64,000 nt of DNA, from contig NZ_NIDE01000007.1 of assembly GCF_002197845.1 (NCBI RefSeq), positions 1 to 64,000 on the forward strand, read 5' to 3'. The stretch's first letter is position 1, and each line of letters opens with the position of its first letter. A program made the translations under genes and the position numbers. Below, piece by piece: positions 6,416-44,945 of this stretch. The notes below the pieces were generated by a model that worked only from the letters and a program-made list of their open reading frames with translations, did not search any database and had not been told where the DNA came from. The DNA is from Fimbriiglobus ruber. GTDB lineage: Bacteria > Planctomycetota > Planctomycetia > Gemmatales > Gemmataceae.

Positions 6416-7111
6416 TTACGACGCCTTCGGGCCATCGGACCCCGTCGTGTCGGGCGTTTTTTCGTCTTTCTTCTTCCGCCGCTTCTCGGCGTCCGTGGCC
6501 TGGTCCCGACCTTCGCCGTCTTTCTTCGGAGCCTTCGGCTTGGCGTCCGGTTCGGGGCCGTTGGCCTTGTTCATACTGACTTCGATCCCGGCTCGCACCC
6601 ACAGGAGGGCAACCCCTGCGGCCTTGGCGACCGTATCTTCGACAGCCGATCGTTCTCCGGGCTTGAACCGCGAAAGCACAAAGTCGACCGCCTCATTCGG
6701 CCCGGGCTGCCCGACTCCAATTCGCAGGCGGGGGTATTCGTCCGTCCCCAGCTGCTCCTGAATGTTCCGCAGCCCGTTCTGTCCGCCGTGGCTGCCCTTC
6801 GAGCGAACCCGGAGCTTACCCAGCGGGAGGTTGAAGTCGTCGCTAATGACCAGCAGGTCGGCCGTCGCCAACTTGTAGAAGTCGACGACTTGCCGGACCG
6901 CCCGGCCGCTCAGGTTCATGAACGTCTCGGGTTTTACGAGCAACACCTGCTCGTTACCCTCTTTCAGTTCCGCGATCTGGGCCTGAAACTTGGCCCGGAA
7001 CGGTCCGCACCCGGGGGCCGCGGCGAGGTAGTCGACCACGTCGAACCCGACGTTGTGCCGGGTGCCGGCGTACTTCGGTCCCGGGTTGCCGAGGCCGACG
7101 ATGACCTTCAT
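6416..7111 (-). CDS. pth: Peptidyl-tRNA hydrolase
   Basis: Releases tRNA from stalled peptidyl-tRNA in the cytoplasm. The start MKVIVGLGNPGPKYAGTRHN holds the family signature with the catalytic histidine (TRHNVGF, about residue 20) and the conserved asparagine (GNPG). KPETFMNLSGRAV, SDDFNLPLGKLRVR and GSHGGQNGLRNI follow in order; the aspartate of SDD corresponds to catalytic Asp93 of E. coli Pth. At 231 residues it is about 40 longer than usual; the extra C-terminal part is highly charged (Lys/Glu/Asp-rich) and probably disordered. It lies between rplY and rpsF on the same strand, the common ctc-pth pairing. Confidence 0.96.
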   Translation of the reverse strand: MKVIVGLGNPGPKYAGTRHNVGFDVVDYLAAAPGCGPFRAKFQAQIAELKEGNEQVLLVKPETFMNLSGRAVRQVVDFYKLATADLLVISDDFNLPLGKLRVRSKGSHGGQNGLRNIQEQLGTDEYPRLRIGVGQPGPNEAVDFVLSRFKPGERSAVEDTVAKAAGVALLWVRAGIEVSMNKANGPEPDAKPKAPKKDGEGRDQATDAEKRRKKKDEKTPDTTGSDGPKAS

Positions 7112-7204
7112 GGCGGCACACTCGCGGCAGCGAGGAGCGGGACGCGGAGGCGGGAGTGCGACGGCCGCCGGTAGCGACGGCCGCGCGATTCCGCCTCACG
7201 GGCG

Positions 7205-7867
7205 TCACTTCTCCTCGGCTTCCCCTTCCTTCGGCTTCTTGGCGGTGAGGACTTCCGGTTCGGCCGGGCTGGCTTCCGCCACGACCGCTTCGGCGCCGGG
7301 CAGCTTGAGTTGGACGACGATGGCTTCGGGCCCTTCCAGCACCTTCACGCCTTCGGGCAGGGTGAGTTCCTTGACGTGGATCGGGTGGCCGAGGGTCAGG
7401 TTGGTCAGGTCGATGCGGATGGCGTCCGGGATCTGGGCGAACTCGCATTCGACGTGGAGATGGTGGAGCGGTTGGTCGAGCACCCCGCCGCCGGTCGCCT
7501 TGGGGGCGTTCCGGAGTTCGACCGGGACCACGACCTTGACGATTTCGGTCAGCGACCGCCGCTCGAAGTCGACGTGGATCATCTCTTTACCGAGGTGATC
7601 CCACTGGAGTTCCTTGATCAGCACGGTGTCGGTCTTGCCGCCGAGCGTCAGGGAAAACATCCGGGCGTGCTGGACGCGGATCGCGCGGTCGAGTTCTTCG
7701 GCGTTGACCGAGACGTGGGCGACCGGTTCCTTGTGTCCGTACACGATGGCCGGGATGAGCCCCTGCTTGCGGAGCTTGGCCGAGGCCCGGGAGCCCTTCT
7801 TGCCGTCGCGGGCCTGGGCGGTGAGGGTGGCGACCTTCTTATCCGACGACTTGGTGGCGGCTGCCAT
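7205..7867 (-). CDS. rplY: 50S ribosomal protein L25/general stress protein Ctc
   Basis: L25 binds 5S rRNA. The N-terminal L25 domain covers about residues 12-100 (ARDGKKGSRASAKLRKQGLI, PAIVYGHKEPV, LIKELQWDHLGKEMIHVDFE), and the Ctc-type C-terminal beta domain covers about 105-200 (GGGVLDQPLHHLHVECEFAQ; then LTLPEGVKVLEGPEAIVVQL). The ATG at 7867 (MAAATKSSDKKVATL) has GAGG about 11 bases upstream and is preferred to an earlier in-frame codon at 7900. Length is 220 residues, normal for the two-domain form. It is the first gene of the minus-strand cluster, so the cluster promoter should lie just upstream of 7867. Confidence 0.95.
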   Translation of the reverse strand: MAAATKSSDKKVATLTAQARDGKKGSRASAKLRKQGLIPAIVYGHKEPVAHVSVNAEELDRAIRVQHARMFSLTLGGKTDTVLIKELQWDHLGKEMIHVDFERRSLTEIVKVVVPVELRNAPKATGGGVLDQPLHHLHVECEFAQIPDAIRIDLTNLTLGHPIHVKELTLPEGVKVLEGPEAIVVQLKLPGAEAVVAEASPAEPEVLTAKKPKEGEAEEK

Positions 7868-8151
7868 GTGCGATCGACCTCGGGGGCCGGCTGCTCTCAC
7901 GGGTAATCAGCCCGCTACCATCGCCTGCCCCGAACCGTGAAAATCCCGGCGTGGGGATCGCGCCTGCAAAGCAAAAACAGGCGACCCAATGGTAGGCCGC
8001 ACTGTCCTGTTCCGGCGCGAAGCAAAGAGAGATTATGTCGCGCAGGCAAATGACCGACAAGGGGGCGGAGAAAAATCGTGCCGAACGGAACGCGGCTCGG
8101 TGAAACAAGAATACCTCCGAAGTCCGTGTCGGCAGCAAAGCACAACCATTC
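7868..8151. other. Intergenic region upstream of rplY
   Basis: No coding region is supported. It should contain the promoter for the L25-Pth-S6-SSB-L9 cluster on the minus strand. No clear promoter boxes, riboswitch or leader hairpin stood out by eye. Confidence 0.3.
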
Positions 8152-8414
8152 GGCTCATGAGGCGGCCGAGGTGCTTCGGCCCGACCGCAGGTCTCCCGCC
8201 CCGACCCCCCACCGGCGCTCGGCGCGGGTCTCCGACCCCGCCGCTCTTCGGACCGCAGGTCTCCCACGCCAGCCTGGCGCAGGCGGCGGTGTCCGAGGGG
8301 TGAGCGTCGGGAGACCTGCGGTCCGAAGAGCGGCGGGGTCGGAGACCCGCGCCGAGCGCCGGTGGGGGTCGGGGCGGGATGTTGCGCCCTTCCACCTCGG
8401 CCGTCTCATGAACC
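8152..8414. mobile_element. MITE-like inverted-repeat element with 8-bp flanking repeats
   Basis: The 263-bp block is nearly all inverted repeat. Its outer ends read GGCTCATGAGGCGGCCGAGG and, on the other strand, GGTTCATGAGACGGCCGAGG, and the inner arms match for about 75 bp around CGGCGCTCGGCGCGGGTCTC. The octamer AACCATTC lies immediately outside both ends (8144-8151 and 8415-8422), as expected of a target-site duplication. There is no transposase, so a non-autonomous element is likely. The remaining 400 bases to the next gene (8423-8811) hold no supported gene and are less GC-rich. Confidence 0.75.
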
Positions 8415-8811
8415 AACCATTCATCGAGCGCATTTGATCCGTGGCGCCGGAGGGCAATCCGTGGCGATGTGAAAATGTGCAGTACCAGAATAAGGAGAAA
8501 AGAGGTAGGAGCGGAAAATCAGACCCTCGTCGCAATTTAAAGGTGTGCCAAGACTCGATGGCCTTTCGACGCTGGGAGCGTGGTCTCGTTCGTTGAAATG
8601 GAGCGACAGGAATTCTTGGTTCCAAATGCGTCACAAGTCTTTGTCAGCGAAACGATTTTGCCGACAATCGCGTGCAGTCGTTTTTCGCGCCCGGATTCCC
8701 TACATGCGCAAAATGCACCATCTCCTCTCTTCCACTTAACAACCCCGGCCGCGTCTGCCTATACTCTTCGGCTCGGGGGAACGGCTTCCGGCGGCTACCA
8801 AGGATGGACCC

Positions 8812-9885
8812 ATGCGCATCGGCTTCGCGATCCCGACGTTGGTCGACGGTGACGCGGTCGGGAACGACCTGCTCGGAATGGCCCGCATCCTCCGGCGACG
8901 CGGGCACGACGTCCTCTTCTTCGCGTGGAACAGTCGGATCAACGAGCCGGTCAAGGGGCCGGCCGACCTACCCCGGATGCTCAACAGCCCGGATGACGTC
9001 CTCATCTATCACCATTCCATCGGCTGCGAGTGGGCAGTCAAGGCGGTCGAAACACTTCCGTGCCGGCGGAAGGCGGTCAAGTACCACAACGTCACCCCGC
9101 CCGAATTCTTCGCGAAGCTGAACGCGGAAGTCGCGGCCGGATGCGCCCAGGGAATCGCCGAGGTCTCCCGGCTCGCTAAGACAGGGGCGCACATCTGGGC
9201 CGACTCCGAGTTCAACGCCCGCCACGTCCGGGAAGTCTGCCCCGGCCGGGCGGTCGCGGAACTCCCGCCGTTTCACCAGGCCGACGACCTGTTCGCCGCC
9301 GAGCCGGACTTCCGGGCCGCGAACGGCCTAGACGACTGGAATACCAACATCCTTCTCGTCGGCCGGCTGGTCCCGAACAAGAACATCCCGCTCGCCGTCC
9401 GTGCGTTCGCCGACTACCGGGCCCGGTTCGACCCCCGCGCCCGGCTCATCGTGGTCGGCGACCGGCCGGTCCCGGAACACGCGGCCGAAGTGGACGCCGA
9501 GATCCACGCCAGCGGCCAGGCGGCCCACACGGTCGTCACCGGCAAGGTCACGCTCTCGCAACTGAAGGCGCTCTACCTGACCGCCGACGCCCTGCTCGTG
9601 ACGAGCCTGCACGAGGGCTTCTGCGTCCCGCTGATCGAGGCGATGGGCCTTCGGCTCCCAGTCGTGGCCGTGCCGAACGCGGCCGTCCCGTTCACCGGCG
9701 GGGACGCGGCCCGGTACGCCGGGTCGGACCCGGCCGCGATCGCCGACCAGCTCGCGGCCGTCATCAATGATCGGGTGTCCCGCGAAGCCCAGATCGTCCG
9801 CGGGTGGGACCGGTACGCGGCCACATTCTCCAATGATGTGATCGGGCAGAAGTTCGAGACGCTGTTCGACGAGTTGATGGTGTAA
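8812..9885 (+). CDS. Glycosyltransferase family 4
   Basis: A 357-residue GT-B-fold enzyme that moves a sugar from an activated donor, acting in the cytoplasm or at the inner membrane face. The N-terminal half has MRIGFAIPTLVDGDAVGNDL and an acceptor-side region. The C-terminal GT4 domain starts about residue 175 with NILLVGRLVPNKNIPLAVRA and carries the donor-site E-x7-E motif in TSLHEGFCVPLIEAMGLRLP followed by VVAVP. There is no signal peptide. Upstream is the inverted-repeat element and downstream the ECF-WD40 gene; neither names an acceptor. It could belong to cell-surface glycan synthesis, but the substrate cannot be read from sequence. Confidence 0.88.
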   Translation: MRIGFAIPTLVDGDAVGNDLLGMARILRRRGHDVLFFAWNSRINEPVKGPADLPRMLNSPDDVLIYHHSIGCEWAVKAVETLPCRRKAVKYHNVTPPEFFAKLNAEVAAGCAQGIAEVSRLAKTGAHIWADSEFNARHVREVCPGRAVAELPPFHQADDLFAAEPDFRAANGLDDWNTNILLVGRLVPNKNIPLAVRAFADYRARFDPRARLIVVGDRPVPEHAAEVDAEIHASGQAAHTVVTGKVTLSQLKALYLTADALLVTSLHEGFCVPLIEAMGLRLPVVAVPNAAVPFTGGDAARYAGSDPAAIADQLAAVINDRVSREAQIVRGWDRYAATFSNDVIGQKFETLFDELMV

Positions 9886-35980: not shown

Positions 35981-36781
35981 TTACTTCGCCGGCGCGGTCG
36001 CCGCCGCTGGTAGCGCCGGCGGGACCGCGTTCAGGTTGAACAGCAGCGGCACGGCGATGAACATGGTCGCGCCACCGAGGATGGCGGTGAACGTCAGCGA
36101 GTGCCCAATGCTGTACCTGAGGACCACCCAGAACACCAGGAACCACGCCAGCAGGTGACCCAGGTTTAACAGCAGGGCGACGACGAGCGCGCCGGAGTTC
36201 GGCGACGCGACCAGCTGCAGGGCGTCTTCGCTCATCGTCCGCGGGCCGCCTTGCTCGCGGAACTGAACCGGGTCGTTGCGGTTCGGCCCGCGGTCGTAGA
36301 GGGTCTTGTCCTTCCGGTCCATCACCGCGTCGAACCGCGCCTTTTTGCCGTCCTCGTCCGTGACCAGAATCGCCGACGTGATGGTACTCGAATCGCTCAG
36401 GCGGAACGGCTTCTGGCCATCGCTGTCGACGAACGGGGCGTCCTTGGTGGCGGACAGCCGGTGGTATTTGACCGTCGTCTCCTTCGGCTTCGCGTCCTTG
36501 GTCCGCGGGTCGACGCGGACCGCCTCGAACTCGGTAATCTCCCGCGTACTCGTCGCACTGAACTCGAACAGCGTGCCGTACTTGTCCTTGTGCGAGGCCC
36601 GCGTGTTGGCGTAGACCCACAGCGTCACCACGCACGCGATCGCGACCCCGCCGACCAGGGCGCGGAGCGGCAACCGGTCGGCCACGTCGCTGTACAGATA
36701 CCCCTGGATGAAGATCGACACACCCCAGAACAGCGCGGTCAGCGCGAGGGCGGTGAGGGCGAACGTGAGAACGAGCGTCAC
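35981..36781 (-). CDS. Conserved membrane protein, unknown function
   Basis: A 266-residue protein not recognised as a named family. Two N-terminal membrane helices (LVLTFALTALALTALFWGVS and ALVGGVAIACVVTLWVYANT) are followed by a soluble domain of about 130 residues (KDKYGTLFEFSATSTREITE) and two C-terminal helices (LLNLGHLLAWFLVFWVVLRY and FTAILGGATMFIAVPLLF). It ends in an Ala/Pro-rich tail. The soluble part would face the periplasm if the N-terminus is cytoplasmic. The convergent propeller gene ends only 9 bases away. Confidence 0.65.
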   Translation of the reverse strand: MTLVLTFALTALALTALFWGVSIFIQGYLYSDVADRLPLRALVGGVAIACVVTLWVYANTRASHKDKYGTLFEFSATSTREITEFEAVRVDPRTKDAKPKETTVKYHRLSATKDAPFVDSDGQKPFRLSDSSTITSAILVTDEDGKKARFDAVMDRKDKTLYDRGPNRNDPVQFREQGGPRTMSEDALQLVASPNSGALVVALLLNLGHLLAWFLVFWVVLRYSIGHSLTFTAILGGATMFIAVPLLFNLNAVPPALPAAATAPAK

Positions 36782-37015
36782 GGAGAGGCTCCCGGGCCGG
36801 AGGTCGGTGCGAACGGGGTTATCCTCCGCACGCGGCCCGGTAGCGTCAACCGGGAAAGCGCGGGGTCTGCTCGTATCCTTCGAACAGGCCGTGCGCAGGT
36901 TTCATGGGAAACGCCCCAAGAAGCCGAGCCTGATTCCTCAGTACGGGCAGCGGTTTTCGGTCGTGGACGGGGTGCGGCCCTGCGGTTAAAGTTGGGGGCC
37001 ACCCAGGAGACCGCC

Positions 37016-38407
37016 ATGCCGGCACCTTCCCGCCGATTCAGCCGCCGGACATTTCTTACCGAATCCACGGCAGCCGCGGCCCTGACCGCCGCGTCTTACA
37101 GCCGCGTTTACGGGGCGACCGAGCGCGTCGGGGTCGGGTTCATCGGGTACGGGCTGATCGGCAATCGCCACGTTACCGACTTCCTGAAGGAACCCGACGT
37201 CGATCCGGTGGCGGCGGCCGAAGTCCACCGCGGGCGGTTGGCCGAGGCGGTCGCCGCCACCGGCGGGCGGGCGAAAGGGGAAGCCGACTTCCGCCGGTTG
37301 CTCGACGACAAGGCGGTCCACGCGGTCGTCGTCTCCACGCCCGACCACTGGCACGTGCCGATGGCCCTACTCGCGTGTGCGGCCGGGAAGGACGTGTACG
37401 TCGAGAAGCCGATGAGCCTATTCGTCCGCGAGGGCCGGTGGCTCGCGGACGCTGCCAAGCGAACCGGCCGGGTCGTGCAGGTCGGCACCCAGCAGCGGTC
37501 CGGGAAGCACTACCAGCGGGCCCGCGATTTGATCCAGGGCGGTGCGATCGGGAAGGTCGTCTCGGTCCGGTGCCAATCGCTGCGGAACGCCTACCCCGGC
37601 TTCGGCAACCCGCCCGACCAGGACCCGCCGGCCGACCTCGACTGGGACCAGTGGCTCGGGCCGGCTCCGGCCCGGAAGTACAACCCGCACCGGGGGATTT
37701 ACTTCTTCCGCTGGATGTGGGACACGGCCGGCGGTCAGATGACCAACATCGGGGCTCACCATTTCGACGTGGCGGACTGGATTCTCGGGCTCGGGACGCT
37801 GAAAGCCGTATCAAGTTCCGGCGGTCGGTTCGCCCTGACTGACAATTTCGAGACGCCGGACACGCAGGACGCCCTGTTCGAGTTCGACGGCTGGACGGCA
37901 TCCTGGATGCTGAGGGAGTGCAGCCGCGGGGCGTATGCCCCTTACCCGCTGGAGTTTTTCGGCACGAAGGGCAGTCTGGGCATCACCCGGCAAGGGTTCC
38001 TGGTCACACCCGATCTCGACACCCCGGCGGTGAACACGATTCCGGGGGTATCGTCCGGACATCCGGCCGGCGGCCCCAAGCCCATCAAGGTCGTCGGCGG
38101 CCCGCGACCCCGGACCGAGGCAATCACCGACCAGACCGGCAGCGAAGATGAGCAGTTCCGCGGCCACGTCCGGAACTTCCTCGACTGCGTGAAGTCGCGG
38201 ACGGCGCCGCACTCGGACGCCGAAAGCGGCCACCGCGTAGCGACACTTTGCCACCTCGCGAACCTGTCCCTCCGGCTCGGCCGGAAACTTCGCTGGGACG
38301 CCAAAACGGAGACGGTGATTGACGATGCGGAAGCGAACCGGGCACTCGTGCGGTCGTACCGGGCGCCGTGGGACCGGGAATTGAAGGCGATCGGGGTGGG
38401 TACGTGA
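37016..38407 (+). CDS. Tat-exported Gfo/Idh/MocA-family oxidoreductase
   Basis: A 463-residue NAD(P)-dependent sugar/inositol dehydrogenase-like protein. The N-terminus has a twin-arginine signal (SRRFSRRTFLTESTAAAALT), common for this family in planctomycetes. The Rossmann domain starts VGVGFIGYGLIGNRHVTDF; PDHWHVPMALLACAAGKDVY and VEKPM give the conserved EKP motif, and QVGTQQRSGKHYQRA is typical. The C-terminal domain has GGQMTNIGAHHFDVADWILG. The ATG at 37016 follows AGGAGA. The 234-base gap upstream holds no gene. The substrate is likely a sugar derivative; no pathway partners are adjacent. Confidence 0.93.
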   Translation: MPAPSRRFSRRTFLTESTAAAALTAASYSRVYGATERVGVGFIGYGLIGNRHVTDFLKEPDVDPVAAAEVHRGRLAEAVAATGGRAKGEADFRRLLDDKAVHAVVVSTPDHWHVPMALLACAAGKDVYVEKPMSLFVREGRWLADAAKRTGRVVQVGTQQRSGKHYQRARDLIQGGAIGKVVSVRCQSLRNAYPGFGNPPDQDPPADLDWDQWLGPAPARKYNPHRGIYFFRWMWDTAGGQMTNIGAHHFDVADWILGLGTLKAVSSSGGRFALTDNFETPDTQDALFEFDGWTASWMLRECSRGAYAPYPLEFFGTKGSLGITRQGFLVTPDLDTPAVNTIPGVSSGHPAGGPKPIKVVGGPRPRTEAITDQTGSEDEQFRGHVRNFLDCVKSRTAPHSDAESGHRVATLCHLANLSLRLGRKLRWDAKTETVIDDAEANRALVRSYRAPWDRELKAIGVGT

Positions 38408-40360: not shown

Positions 40361-40438
40361 TTCGCCGCCGATGAACGCGGATCAGAAAAGAATTCCGCTT
40401 TCTGATCCGCGTTCATCGGCGCAAATCTGCGGCGAAAA
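40361..40438. repeat. Palindromic repeat, copy B
   Basis: TTCGCCGCCGATGAACGCGG(+ATCAGAAA) pairs with the right arm (40399-40436) apart from an 8-base insertion. The minus-strand QueA-like gene reads into it: its last 18 or so codons are encoded by this repeat. Confidence 0.75.
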
Positions 40439-41488
40439 ATATTCGCGTCGCCCGTATTCCCGCTCGATGAAAACCGAATCGCCAAACTCGTGCGTCCGGT
40501 AGTCGCCCGCCTGGAGGGCGACGTTCACCCGGTCTAAAACGGCGTCGGCCGCGAACGCCCGCAGCAGTTCGTAGTGGCTGGTGTCCGGTTCGTGGGTGCC
40601 CGAGAGTATCGCGTCCGCGACGCACAAGCGGGTGGCCGCGCCAATGCGCTGCGTGGCTACCCCATCGCCGGCGCGGACCCGGCCGTCGGCGAGGGCCGCG
40701 TGTTCGAGAGCACGCACGACGGTCGTGCCGATCGCGACGACCCGGCTGCCGCGGGCCCGGGTCAGGCGGACCGCGAGGGCGGTGGCCGCCGGGATGTGGT
40801 AGGGCTCGTCGAACGGCAGCCGCCGGTCCAGTTCGGGGTCGCCCGTGGACGAAATCCCGGCCGCGTGCGTGAGCGTGGCGAATCCGACGCCGCGGGCACG
40901 GAACCCCTCAAGGACGTGCCAGTCCAGCGCGAAGCCGGCCGATGGCGACTCGAACGCCACCGGCGGACCGGCGACGGGCGTCCACACATCCCACAGAGCT
41001 AGCGGCACCGGCATGTGTGCGTACTGGATCGGCCGCCCGTGGCGGGCCAGACCGGCCCAGATCGCGTCCGGTGTCCCGTCGAAGCGGAGCCCGACCAGGC
41101 GGGCGTGGCCGAGGCGGCGCTCGACCGTCGCCACGAGCGGGCTGAGGGTGAGCCGGTCGCCCGGATCGAGGACCGGCGGCGGCGGGCGGTCTTCGGTGCG
41201 CGCGTGGTAATCGCCCGCGCCGAACACGACGGCGACGAACTGGCGGACGTCGTCCGCCGCCAGCGACCGCCGGCCCGCGAGCCGAACTTCGACGGGCTCG
41301 CCGCTCCGCACGTGGACGCCCTGAAGACTGGCGGGCAGCGTTGCCGCGTCGTTGGCGACGACCAGATCACCCGGCCGCAGGAATTCGACGAGCGCGGACC
41401 TGACGGCGTGGGTCATCGCGCCGAAGCGATCGACCACCAGTAACTTCGCCAGCGGCGGCCGCTGGACGGGACTGTCGGCGGCGATCAT
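40382..41488 (-). CDS. QueA-like S-adenosylmethionine:tRNA ribosyltransferase-isomerase homologue
   Basis: A 368-residue protein of the QueA family, whose canonical member moves the ribosyl part of SAM to 7-aminomethyl-deazaguanine in tRNA (queuosine synthesis). Visible are RPGDLVVANDAATLPASLQG (QueA-like FxPGDLLVxNDTxVxPARL), GRPIQYAHMPVPLALWDVWT (compare the family's H-x-QY region) and VGFATLTHAAGISSTGDPEL and HIPAATALAV. Several positions differ from classical QueA (for example NDAATLPASL for NDTKVIPARL), so this may be a paralogue with another substrate. The last 18 residues (FSPQICADERGSESGILF) come from a palindromic repeat. It overlaps the SDR gene by four bases. Confidence 0.85.
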   Translation of the reverse strand: MIAADSPVQRPPLAKLLVVDRFGAMTHAVRSALVEFLRPGDLVVANDAATLPASLQGVHVRSGEPVEVRLAGRRSLAADDVRQFVAVVFGAGDYHARTEDRPPPPVLDPGDRLTLSPLVATVERRLGHARLVGLRFDGTPDAIWAGLARHGRPIQYAHMPVPLALWDVWTPVAGPPVAFESPSAGFALDWHVLEGFRARGVGFATLTHAAGISSTGDPELDRRLPFDEPYHIPAATALAVRLTRARGSRVVAIGTTVVRALEHAALADGRVRAGDGVATQRIGAATRLCVADAILSGTHEPDTSHYELLRAFAADAVLDRVNVALQAGDYRTHEFGDSVFIEREYGRREYFSPQICADERGSESGILF

Positions 41489-42252
41489 AAGGCACCTCCC
41501 GCGTTCCGGTCACCGGCGCCTACACCTGACGCGAGAATGGATCCGGGCAGGGCGGCGCGAATGGCGTCGGCCAGTTCACGCGCGGCTGTTTCCGGGCGCT
41601 TCAACGTCGTGGGGTCCGCGTCGGGAATCGCGGCCTGGTGCATCGGCGTGTCCATGTCGCCCGGGTCGACCGACAGAAAGCGCACGCCCTCTGCCGCGAG
41701 TTCGGCGTCCCAGATCGCCGTCATGTGGCGGAGGGCCGCCTTGCTCGCGCCGTACGCACCCCAGCGCGGGTACGCATTGACCGCCGCGTCGCTCGACACG
41801 TTTAGCACTACCGCCCCGCTCCCCTCGCGGGCCGACGCGGCCAGCGCGCCGAGGACCGCCTTCGTCAACCGGAACGGTCCGAGCAGGTTCGTGGCGAGGG
41901 CGCGTTCCAGGTCCTCGCAGTCCGTGTCGCCGAGCAGCCGCAGCGGCACCGGCCCCAGGTCCGAGGCGTTGTTGACCAGAACGTCCAACCCGCCCAGTTC
42001 GCCGACGATTTGCAGGGCGAGGAGGTAGATGTCCTCTTTCTTGGACACGTCCCCCACGATCCCCTTCGCCCCGGGATTCGCTTCCGCAACTTGCACGACA
42101 CGCTCCGGGGTGCGGGCGACGAACGCCACCCGTGCCCCGCGCCCGAGCAATTCCCGAACGAGTGCCAGGCCCAGTCCGGAGGTGCCGCCCGTGACGGCCA
42201 CCCGCAGGCCCGCGAAGTGATCCGGCGACTCGGAATGCCAAGATGGTTCCAT
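41485..42252 (-). CDS. Short-chain dehydrogenase/reductase (SDR)
   Basis: A 255-residue classical SDR, NAD(P)-dependent. The cofactor motif is VAVTGGTSGLGLALVRELLG; VLVNNASDLG is the NNAG-type motif; VVLNVSSDAAVNAYPRWGAY plus GASK supplies the catalytic Ser and Tyr-x3-Lys. The C-terminus ends with the substrate-loop region (VDPGDMDTPMHQAAIPDADP). It is the first gene of a minus-strand pair; its stop overlaps the start of the QueA-like gene (ATGA), so the two are coupled. The divergent HTH regulator begins 121 bases away and may control the pair. Confidence 0.92.
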   Translation of the reverse strand: MEPSWHSESPDHFAGLRVAVTGGTSGLGLALVRELLGRGARVAFVARTPERVVQVAEANPGAKGIVGDVSKKEDIYLLALQIVGELGGLDVLVNNASDLGPVPLRLLGDTDCEDLERALATNLLGPFRLTKAVLGALAASAREGSGAVVLNVSSDAAVNAYPRWGAYGASKAALRHMTAIWDAELAAEGVRFLSVDPGDMDTPMHQAAIPDADPTTLKRPETAARELADAIRAALPGSILASGVGAGDRNAGGAL

Positions 42253-42307
42253 GACTCGACTCCGTGAGGAGTTACCAGCCCGCTCGTAACCGAAGTGCGG
42301 CGGGTTG

Positions 42308-42352
42308 CATAAGAGCCGGTCGGCCCTTATGATTTACCAAGTTGATGCTTGG
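42308..42352. promoter_or_regulatory. Inverted repeats between SDR operon and regulator
   Basis: Two short inverted repeats lie in the divergent spacer: CATAAG…CTTATG (42308-42331) and CCAAG-TTGATG-CTTGG (42337-42352). Either could be an operator for the adjacent regulator. The spacer is lower in GC than the genes. Position is the main evidence. Confidence 0.45.
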
Positions 42353-42373
42353 ATAATAGACGGGGTCGCAAAT

Positions 42374-43075
42374 ATGTCAAGCGACGACTTGGAAAACTCG
42401 CCGCGTTCGGCCGCGGACCGCTTCCTGTTACTACTGAAGACCCGTGGGCCGCAAACCGCGGCCGACCTGGGGACCGCCGCCGGCGTCACCGGGGAGGCTG
42501 CCCGGCAGCAACTCGTCCGGCTCGCGGCTTCCGGCCTCGTCGTGGCGGCGGCGGAGCCCCGCGGCGTCGGCCGGCCGACCCAGGTGTGGACGTTGACCGC
42601 TGCCGGGAACGCCCGATTCCCGGACGCGCACGCCGAACTCACCGCCCACCTCATCCAGACGATCCGGACGCAATTGGGCGAAGACGTACTCGACCGATTG
42701 ATCGACGCGCGGGCGGCCGAGTCGAAGGCGGCTTACGCGGCGGCGCTGGACGGGTCGGCCGACCTAGGCGAGAAGGTGGCCCGGCTCGCCCAGGCGCGGA
42801 CGCGCGAAGGGTACATGGCGGAGTCTCAGGCGGAGGGGCGGGGTTATCTCCTGGTCGAGAATCACTGCCCGATTTGCGTGGCCGCGACGGCCTGCCAGGG
42901 GTTCTGCCGGGCCGAACTCGACACGTTCCGCGAAGTGCTGGGGCAGGACGCGGCCGTCGAGCGGACCGAACACATTGTTCAAGGGGATCGGCGCTGCGCG
43001 TACCGGATCTCGCTCAATACCAGATCCGAAAGTGAGCCGAGACGCCGAAAGAGCCGGGATGAAAAACCCAGTTGA
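42374..43075 (+). CDS. HTH transcriptional regulator with cysteine cluster (SufR/DeoR-like)
   Basis: A 233-residue regulator. The winged helix lies at about residues 10-80 (LLLLKTRGPQTAADLGTAAG; GEAARQQLVRLAASGLV; RPTQVWTLTAAGNARF). The C-terminal half has C-P-I-C-x6-C-x3-C (NHCPICVAATACQGFCRAEL), with a further cysteine at RRCAYRI, as in SufR-type repressors that bind an Fe-S cluster. The ATG at 42374 is chosen because it begins the conserved part; an upstream ATG at 42329 is possible. It is divergent from the SDR/QueA-like operon and may sense iron-sulfur or redox state. Confidence 0.85.
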   Translation: MSSDDLENSPRSAADRFLLLLKTRGPQTAADLGTAAGVTGEAARQQLVRLAASGLVVAAAEPRGVGRPTQVWTLTAAGNARFPDAHAELTAHLIQTIRTQLGEDVLDRLIDARAAESKAAYAAALDGSADLGEKVARLAQARTREGYMAESQAEGRGYLLVENHCPICVAATACQGFCRAELDTFREVLGQDAAVERTEHIVQGDRRCAYRISLNTRSESEPRRRKSRDEKPS

Positions 43076-43159: not shown

Positions 43160-43483
43160 GTGGCCGCGGCCGTGAAGTACGCGGGCGCCCACTTGGACCG
43201 CCGACTGACGGCCGACGAACTGGGGGGCGTCGCCGGATTGTCCGCTTATCAAGCCGACCAAAAAATCCGTCACCTGTTTCGGTTGACGACCGGACAGTTA
43301 CTACTCAAGCTCCGCATGGATTCGGCCGCCGAACAACTCCGGGACACCAACCTGACGATTGTCGAGATCGGATTCGCGTGCGGGTACGCCGACCAGAGTT
43401 CGTTCACACGGCAGTTCCGGTCGACAACCGGGTTGACGCCCGGTGAGTACCGCCGGACGTTCCGCCCGACTTCGGGGCACTGA
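43160..43483 (+). CDS. AraC-type HTH domain protein or fragment
   Basis: Encodes about 107 residues that are essentially a complete AraC C-terminal DNA-binding domain: LTADELGGVAGLSAYQADQK and LRDTNLTIVEIGFACGYADQ plus SSFTRQFRSTTGLTPGEYRR. The frame is open back to 43076, just after the regulator's stop, but has no ATG; GTG at 43160 is the best start. The ligand-binding domain usual in the family is absent, so it is either a short stand-alone HTH protein or the surviving end of a broken gene. Confidence 0.65.
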   Translation: MAAAVKYAGAHLDRRLTADELGGVAGLSAYQADQKIRHLFRLTTGQLLLKLRMDSAAEQLRDTNLTIVEIGFACGYADQSSFTRQFRSTTGLTPGEYRRTFRPTSGH

Positions 43484-43633: not shown

Positions 43634-43700
43634 CTCACGTCACCACACGTCCCCCGTGGCGCGTAAATGGTGACGGTGGTTCCGAGTCGAGGTGAGTCAC

Positions 43701-44945
43701 GTGCCGCCGAACCCGTCCGACGTCCGCGCGCTGATCGACGAGACGTACCGCTCCGAGTCCCGGCGCGTGTTCGCCTCCTTGGTGCGACTGGTGCGGGACT
43801 TCGACCTGGCCGAGGAGGCCCTGCACGAGGCGTTCGCGGCCGCGCTCGAGCGGTGGCCCCGGGACGGCGTCCCGGACAACCCGCGGGCGTGGCTGGTGTC
43901 GACCGGCCGCTTCAAGGCGGTCGACGCGCTCCGCCGGCGCGGCCACTTCGACACCCTCCAACCGGAACTCGCCGGCCGGCTGGCGGAGATCGCCGGGGCC
44001 AACGCCGCCCGCGCGGACCGGGCGATCGAGGACGACCGCCTGCGACTCGTCTTCGCCTGCTGCCACCCGGCGCTCGACCGCACGGTCCAGGTCCCGCTCA
44101 CCCTGCGGGAGGTGTGCGGGCTGACGACGGAGGAGATCGCCGGGGCGTTCCTGACCGCGCCAACGACGATGGCCCAGCGGATCGTGCGGGGCAAGGCCAA
44201 GATCCGCGTCGCCGGCATCCCGTTCGCCGTCCCGGCCGCCACCGACCTCCCGGAACGGCTGGGGCCGGTGCTGGCGGTCGTCTACCTGGTGTTCAACGAG
44301 GGGTACTCGGCCACCTCCGGCGGGACGCTCACGCGGGCCGACCTGTCGGGCGAGGCCATCCGCCTGGGGCGACTGGTGGTCGAACTGCTGCCCGACCCGG
44401 AGGCCGTCGGCCTGCTCGCGCTCATGCTCCTCCAGGAGTCGCGCCGCCACGCGCGGACAACGCCGGACGGCGACGTCGTCCTGCTCGAAGACCAGGACCG
44501 GTCGGCGTGGGACGCCCGGCTGATTGCCGAGGGCCGCGAGTTGGTCGAGCGGGCACTGGGCACCCGGCAGTTCGGGCCGTACACGCTCCAGGCAACCATC
44601 GCCGCCGTTCACGCGGAAGCACCCACCGCCGCGGACACCGACTGGCAGCAAATCGCGTCGCTGTACGACGTCCTGATCGCCCTGAACCCGTCGCCGGTCG
44701 TGGAGTTAAACCGCGCCGTGGCGGTGGCGATGCGGGACGGCCCCGCGGCCGGCGTCGACCTGATCGACCTCATCCTCGCCCGCGGCGATCTCGCCGAGTA
44801 CCACCTCGCCCACGCCGCCCGCGCGGACCTGCTCCGCCGCCTGGGGAAAAAAAGAGATGCCCGAGTGGCGTACAAGCGGGCTCTTGAACTGGCTCAGCAG
44901 GAGCCGGAACGGCGGTTCCTGCTGAAACGGTTGTCGCAACTTTGA
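43701..44945 (+). CDS. ECF RNA polymerase sigma factor with TPR-like tail (ECF42 type)
   Basis: A 414-residue sigma factor. Region 2 (about 10-75: RVFASLVRLVRDFDLAEEAL; DNPRAWLVSTGRFKAVDALR) and region 4 (about 120-170: LTLREVCGLTTEEIAGAFLT) are followed by the conserved extension (LAVVYLVFNEGYSATSGG) and a helical TPR-like C-terminus (YDVLIALNPSPVVELNRAVA; LGKKRDARVAYKRALELA). This is the ECF42 layout, typically near a DGPF/YCII-domain gene. None is seen on either side here. The GTG at 43701 is chosen because GAGGTGAG lies five bases upstream; another in-frame GTG at 43692 overlaps that site. Confidence 0.92.
   Translation: MPPNPSDVRALIDETYRSESRRVFASLVRLVRDFDLAEEALHEAFAAALERWPRDGVPDNPRAWLVSTGRFKAVDALRRRGHFDTLQPELAGRLAEIAGANAARADRAIEDDRLRLVFACCHPALDRTVQVPLTLREVCGLTTEEIAGAFLTAPTTMAQRIVRGKAKIRVAGIPFAVPAATDLPERLGPVLAVVYLVFNEGYSATSGGTLTRADLSGEAIRLGRLVVELLPDPEAVGLLALMLLQESRRHARTTPDGDVVLLEDQDRSAWDARLIAEGRELVERALGTRQFGPYTLQATIAAVHAEAPTAADTDWQQIASLYDVLIALNPSPVVELNRAVAVAMRDGPAAGVDLIDLILARGDLAEYHLAHAARADLLRRLGKKRDARVAYKRALELAQQEPERRFLLKRLSQL

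Follow-up and report, generated by a model that had tools for sequence, protein, structure and literature searches.

A sister clade of QueA conserved beside a short-chain dehydrogenase/reductase, and a possible redox-controlled two-enzyme module in Fimbriiglobus ruber

Using the 64,000-nucleotide stretch of Fimbriiglobus ruber DNA that opens contig NZ_NIDE01000007.1 of assembly GCF_002197845.1 (positions 1 to 64,000 of the forward strand; the whole stretch is called the window below), we identified a second QueA, different from the canonical queuosine enzyme, whose gene shares an operon with a gene for a short-chain dehydrogenase/reductase (SDR) and lies divergent from the gene for a SufR-type winged-helix regulator. 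We call this protein QueA2, which is our own name for the sister clade of canonical QueA. We give roughly even odds, a probability of about 0.5, to the reading that the SDR and QueA2 work together as an enzyme pair outside queuosine synthesis and are induced by redox stress, and the function we favour for it is NADPH- and S-adenosylmethionine (SAM)-dependent processing of a redox-active small molecule. The three genes, all of which a preliminary description of the window had already placed at these positions, are as follows.

40382-41488, minus strand: QueA2 (protein P0001, 368 amino acids), second gene of the operon, assigned by PF02547 Queuosine_synth, clade and signature residues.
41485-42252, minus strand: SDR-family oxidoreductase (P0002, 255 amino acids), first gene of the operon, Pfam adh_short, E 2e-41.
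42374-43075, plus strand: SufR-type winged-helix regulator (P0003, 233 amino acids) with Cys165, Cys168, Cys174, Cys178 and Cys208, TIGR02702, E 8e-29.

P0001 matches PF02547 with an E value of 5e-38 and 131 bits (cut-off 25), and falls under both QueA equivalog cut-offs, at 70 of 267 bits for TIGR00113 and 101 of 324 bits for NF001140. Scanning species genomes from Bacteria and Archaea gave more than 550 relatives, of which the 80 most similar were fetched, the query behind these 80 loci consisting of P0001 plus three proteins from Rhizobium and one from Nonomuraea; together with three Rhizobium plasmid loci and one Nonomuraea locus they make up our set of 84 QueA2 loci. Identity of the QueA2 relatives to P0001 ranges from 70%, in Acidobacteria, down to approximately 30%. 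A tree built by a quick search, with branch support from the Shimodaira-Hasegawa-like approximate likelihood-ratio test (SH-aLRT) only, places 60 QueA2 rows (P0001 and its 59 relatives) opposite 27 further members of the QueA family, across a branch with a support of 99. Examination of the alignment demonstrated that seven residues, T50, Y156, E180, S183, G297, H305 and E334, are fixed in 60 of 60 aligned QueA2 proteins, and that canonical QueA has V, P, A, T, N, L and S at these positions in 26 of 26 rows, in line with the earlier claim of a QueA paralogue with altered motif residues. In addition, H333 is fixed in QueA2, where canonical QueA has F or Y. Two sequences were kept out of the canonical set to leave these 26 rows: L157, a re-fetched copy of the Trinickia QueA2 L068 that is counted with QueA2 in the tree, and L158, a third QueA-family protein in the genome of Trinickia symbiotica (G151), which sits on a long branch on the canonical side.

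Other parts of the protein are shared by the two clades, with D41, N46, G254-T255-T256, R259, E262, H299, Y330, G336 and D337 kept in at least 90% of QueA2 and of canonical QueA proteins. An AlphaFold2 model of QueA2, made from a 59-row alignment, has a mean predicted local distance difference test score of 91.5 and a predicted template modelling (TM) score of 0.90, and a Foldseek search of this model against the PDB returned four matches with E <= 0.001, all of them QueA chains (including 1yy3, 1vky and 1wdi), with modest TM-scores of 0.48-0.63. To us this combination points to a SAM-ribose core that has been retained and an acceptor side that has changed, and from the conserved residues and the predicted fold the QueA reaction itself may be kept, with the reservation that a review (PMC10491745) describes the QueA mechanism as poorly explored and the roles of its ligand-binding residues as unsettled even for QueA. 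QueA2 thus resembles QueA in family, fold and conserved core residues, and differs from it in forming a sister clade with seven replaced residues, in having an SDR partner and in occurring in genomes without TGT or QueF. Within the class of the window, 70 of 148 genomes have a P0001 match at E <= 1e-10, the best besides the own genome being 32% identical, and the 29 other class loci that were fetched all carry the canonical QueA motif and never the QueA2 motif.

Our analysis of queuosine genes shows that in some genomes QueA2 is not tied to this pathway. Contig C14 of the F. ruber genome carries a canonical queA (410 bits), and the genome also has tgt, queC and queF, likewise on contigs other than that of the locus; the preliminary description would have been contradicted had QueA2 been the sole queA alongside a complete pathway, which the canonical queA excludes, and the description's observation that no queuosine genes lie nearby fits the open reading frames (ORFs) listed for 36-48 kb. 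We then counted TGT, QueF and QueA in 40 genomes picked by us from the 80 best loci, some of them metagenome-assembled genomes (MAGs). QueA2 is the only PF02547 protein in 13 of these 40, and in 10, all Actinomycetota, we found no TGT above the cut-off, no QueF and no canonical QueA; seven of these ten have isolate names and three are MAGs, and one has a sub-threshold 19-bit TGT match. The TGT search found a match in 14 of 14 control genomes. Absence of QueF alone is no proof, as a Sporosarcina genome (G163) with TGT and QueA also has no QueF. Without TGT there is no preQ1-tRNA in these genomes, so QueA2 must act on something else there, which supports the earlier suggestion of a substrate outside queuosine synthesis.

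An ordinary QueA that serves as the sole or a redundant queuosine enzyme is ruled out by the canonical queA on C14, the scores below cut-off, the signature residues and the genomes without TGT. A related explanation, in which QueA2 is induced by stress and serves as a further enzyme of queuosine synthesis on tRNA while the SDR modifies the cyclopentene ring, draws on its sharing the family and fold of QueA and on the ability of the F. ruber genome to make queuosine precursors. We nevertheless consider it improbable: a canonical QueA coexists with QueA2 in the same genome, residues fixed in the 26 canonical QueAs are replaced in all 60 QueA2 proteins, and a quarter of the 40 genomes have none of the three queuosine proteins detected at our cut-offs.

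The pairing with the SDR is a nearly constant feature of these loci. By profile search, 80 of 84 have an SDR gene directly upstream of QueA2, and tblastn adds L070 and L099 to give 82 of 84; the remaining two are L131, which is cut at its end, and L096, where 785 bp of upstream sequence hold no SDR. The loci come from 14 named phyla, two of them archaeal, a spread to be read with the usual caution for MAG contigs. As a control, an SDR beside other QueA genes was found as one weak match (45 bits) in 31 places, made up of the 29 class loci, the own genome and G135, mostly with only 1.5 kb of flank. No fusion was found among the QueA2 loci. In the window the SDR stop and the QueA2 start overlap by four bases (ATGA), and this overlap and the pair's recurrence agree with the coupling of QueA to an SDR that had been noted beforehand. 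P0002 is a classical SDR with TGxxxGxG and Ser-Tyr-Lys motifs: T21, G22, G26 and G28 are nearly or fully invariant, and all 79 SDRs that were aligned from QueA2 loci have the S, Y and K corresponding to Ser154, Tyr167 and Lys171. Pairwise distances of SDR and QueA2 proteins correlate at r 0.87 over 58 loci, a value obtained with no species-tree control, where shared descent alone gives some correlation.

This ancient, wide pairing and correlated divergence would also suit a dedicated two-step product, in which the two enzymes convert SAM into a novel small molecule or cofactor that helps the cell under redox stress, with QueA2 rearranging the SAM ribose and the SDR adjusting the oxidation state of the product. 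In favour of this, a different QueA-family relative, 29% identical, occurs on Sinorhizobium meliloti plasmid pRmeGR4a (L048, 5366-12360) in what is perhaps a biosynthetic cluster, with genes for an NTF2-like protein, two radical SAM proteins, a diaminopimelate-decarboxylase-like protein and a CPBP protease. We regard biosynthesis as unlikely, though it is an explanation to be taken seriously, as, apart from a glyoxalase-family gene in Bacilli, the pair has no other recurrent companion dedicated to biosynthesis or transport. In these Bacilli loci (L087-L135), a small gene of this family lies directly after QueA2 in 22 cases, often with a GAF kinase and a response regulator adjoining.

A comparison of the regulators beside the pair is where we find support for redox control of the SDR-QueA2 operon. 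Within the range searched around the pair in the 84 loci, a SoxR gene is present in 21, a SufR-type gene in 7, a GAF kinase in 16 and an XRE-cupin protein in 11 (one in part), with none of these in 29. All 21 neighbouring SoxR proteins have C-x2-C-x-C-x5-C, and in every one of these 21 loci a SoxR-box-like site with no more than 6 mismatches over 18 positions precedes the pair, 18 of the loci having no more than 5 (the scan had to be widened for two); among 1680 350-bp stretches drawn at random from these loci, 79 reach <=6 and 20 reach <=5 mismatches. The 16 GAF kinases usually occur with a LuxR-type response regulator; 12 carry a CWC or CYC motif and are AirS-like, and four are DosS-like, without the AirS-type cysteines. 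AirS of Staphylococcus aureus is a [2Fe-2S] kinase with C-x7-C-x-C-x17-C, according to PMC4601167. The QueA2 loci resemble AirSR in combining a GAF histidine kinase with a LuxR-type regulator and in having C-x-C-x17-C in 9 of the 16 kinases, and differ from it in that the exact AirS spacing occurs in L121 only and in that the F. ruber locus has no such system.

Mapping the regulators of 40 labelled rows onto the tree requires a minimum of 14 switches of type, and the same pair has thus been joined repeatedly to different sensors. This repeated joining, mostly to Fe-S (iron-sulphur) or gas-sensing families, is the strongest argument for a role in redox stress, an argument from family analogy, and it lends support to the redox-controlled pathway that the preliminary description had proposed. 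By the same evidence, conservation of the three genes, a check named beforehand, holds for the SDR-QueA2 pair and only in part for the regulator, which is SufR-type in only the seven loci, with members of other sensor families often in its place elsewhere; strict conservation of the whole trio was not found. A SoxR study (PMC4146615) reports that SoxR of Streptomyces and Pseudomonas governs transporters and antibiotic-tailoring-like enzymes for redox-active metabolites. Our 21 SoxR loci are similar to the regulons of S. coelicolor and P. aeruginosa in that SoxR and a SoxR box stand beside oxidoreductase or tailoring genes, whereas a term search of the S. coelicolor regulon paper (PMC4146615) returned neither 'ribosyltransferase' nor 'short-chain', and the F. 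ruber regulator is SufR-type, not SoxR.

The F. ruber regulator itself matches TIGR02702 (SufR_cyano) at 101 bits, below the 179-bit cut-off, and its start is backed by alignment with an 80% identical homologue in genome G135. The preliminary description had reported a C-x2-C-x6-C-x3-C cluster; the four cysteines stand, and the spacing is corrected to C165-x2-C168-x5-C174-x3-C178, with a fifth cysteine, C208, added. C165, C178 and C208 are invariant in 15 aligned P0003 relatives, and C168 and C174 are present in only part of them. In SufR of Mycobacterium tuberculosis, C203, C216 and C244 are required for function, as stated in PMC6034842, and the cyanobacterial SufR site is given as CAAC-N6-GTTG in PMC8593673; a RisR paper (PMC9973013) was set aside, as it concerns Rrf2-type and not SufR-type proteins. 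P0003 resembles SufR in its winged-helix N-terminus, in the spacing C165-x12-C178-x29-C208, which is close to the C203/C216/C244 triad (C-x12-C-x27-C type), and in nearby CAAG-N6-CTTG sites, candidate operators whose sequence resembles CAAC-N6-GTTG. It differs in having the extra C168 and C174, in lying beside another operon and in belonging to a genome without detectable SUF. The elements between and around the divergent genes are as follows.

42253-42373, no strand: divergent intergenic region between the SDR and P0003 genes, probably containing both promoters.
42308-42331, no strand: near-perfect 24-bp palindrome CATAAG-N12-CTTATG, with arms 10/11 complementary.
42337-42352, no strand: candidate operator 1, CCAAG-N6-CTTGG, with SufR-box-like spacing.
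42378-42391, no strand: candidate operator 2, CAAG-N6-CTTG, overlapping the start of the P0003 gene.

CAAG-N6-CTTG occurs at three sites in the window, 42338, 42378 and 44873, the first two of which flank the P0003 start codon, and both CCAAG-N6-CTTGG and CATAAG-N12-CTTATG occur once. The family match and the invariant SufR cysteines would also fit an ordinary SufR that controls Fe-S assembly and has its neighbours by chance. Our search found no SUFBD core protein (PF01458) in the F. ruber genome, which at 12.36 Mb is 97% complete, so that approximately 3% may be missing, and the same search matched in 14 of 14 controls; with no SUF core protein found, we rejected the role of P0003 as a suf repressor. 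In addition, the trio recurs in the Acidobacteria loci L059 and L060, in the same divergent arrangement and with the SufR-type gene right beside the pair (identities to the window proteins of 51 and 48% for the SufR-type protein, 74 and 76% for the SDR, and 70 and 69% for QueA2), and the SufR-type gene of L126 and L128 shares a strand with the genes of the pair and overlaps them. A chance neighbourhood is, on this evidence, highly improbable.

In G135 (L050, approximately 6550-8980), the P0003 homologue is divergent from glyoxalase-family and arylamine N-acetyltransferase genes, with a CCAAG-N6-CTTTG site in the intergenic region, and no QueA2 was found in this genome; here a P0003-type switch is set on other small-molecule-processing genes. 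An FMN (flavin mononucleotide) reductase gene follows QueA2 in the archaeal operon L126. We count this detoxification theme, namely the G135 genes, the glyoxalase-family genes of Bacilli and the L126 reductase, in favour of the processing of a redox-active small molecule. The redox-sensor neighbours could also serve a repair function, in which QueA2 repairs or salvages S-adenosyl or nucleoside compounds damaged under oxidative stress; the absence of a tie to one lifestyle or xenobiotic and the SAM-like ligand expected from the kept QueA core are in keeping with this. We think repair quite unlikely, given the sporadic distribution in the class sample and the glyoxalase and N-acetyltransferase beside the G135 regulator, which point to foreign or reactive compounds.

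Using these comparisons, the mechanism that we infer for a redox-controlled SDR-QueA2 module, including its cluster, operator, induction, cofactor, chemistry, substrate, acceptor and order of enzymes, would run as follows. P0003, which probably senses oxidative stress, would carry a predicted Fe-S cluster on Cys165, Cys178 and Cys208, and the holo-protein would bind the CAAG-N6-CTTG sites around its own start, repressing both itself and the SDR-QueA2 operon. Repression would end once the cluster is damaged by oxidants, nitric oxide (NO) or redox-cycling compounds. The SDR, as an NAD(P)H enzyme, would then act on a small molecule with a carbonyl or quinone by reduction (or oxidation), while QueA2, like QueA, would draw the ribosyl group from SAM, with release of adenine and methionine, and pass it to a nucleophilic group, perhaps an amine, on that molecule or on a partner of it. 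In this way a redox-active metabolite or its damage product would be tailored or defused.

Several observations weigh against this reading. The 785 bp upstream of QueA2 in L096 contain no SDR, and where the pair is intact the SDR could act on something unrelated to the QueA2 substrate. The 29 loci counted above lack any of five regulator types in the searched range, the 11 XRE-cupin proteins belong to a kind not known to sense redox, eight of the 21 SoxR loci are rhizobial and not independent, and the full AirS cysteine spacing is present in just one of 16 kinases. The membership of P0003 in the SufR family comes from a match below the cut-off (101 of 179 bits), and a close homologue of the locus is present in only the own genome among the 148 class genomes, which makes the locus sporadic in its class.

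Examination of the flanking genes identified a standalone AraC-type DNA-binding domain of 107 amino acids at 43160-43483 (plus strand), 84 bp downstream of the P0003 gene and on the same strand. It matches HTH_18 (E 2e-19), and its PDB matches include SoxS (E 6e-9); in the fetched QueA2 loci it has only two weak matches and is otherwise not common to them. Further out, ORFs at 36251-38407 (plus strand) and 43692-44945 (plus strand, 417 amino acids) were named from their translations as a Gfo/Idh/MocA-type oxidoreductase and an RNA polymerase sigma-like protein.

Our literature search found no description of a QueA paralogue with an SDR and no link between SoxR and QueA, which is weak evidence of absence as subscription journals and preprints lay mostly outside it. 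A queA beside tRNA-Leu occurs in a genomic island of Pseudomonas syringae pv. tagetis, and we take this to be the usual canonical queA. The paper on this island (PMC11760712) names queA and an SDR and was set aside, a figure legend having queA beside tRNA-Leu at the edge. A full-text search for 'QueA-like', 'QueA homolog', 'QueA paralog' and 'QueA family' matched PMC1282579 only.

QueA is known as the enzyme that transfers and isomerises the ribose of SAM, and this chemistry would have another use if a QueA relative functions where queuosine genes are absent. Tentatively, and with some doubt, we suggest that the pair represents a widespread, undescribed stress module, in which a QueA relative, with SAM as its ribosyl donor outside tRNA, joins with a dedicated SDR in capping or remodelling a redox-active small molecule, and which has come again and again under the control of Fe-S or gas sensors from separate families (SoxR, SufR-type, AirS-like and DosS-like). 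This repeated pairing suggests inducers that can be tested, i.e., redox-cycling drugs, peroxide and NO, and the laboratory strain Rhizobium etli CFN 42 has a SoxR-linked QueA2 copy on its plasmid p42f (RHE_RS29345/29350/29355). Genes annotated as 'S-adenosylmethionine:tRNA ribosyltransferase-isomerase' that lie beside an SDR gene are probably misnamed. QueA2 would thus be a known kind of enzyme in a new setting, and its pairing with the SDR is probably a stress response that makes unusual use of SAM and has gone unstudied.

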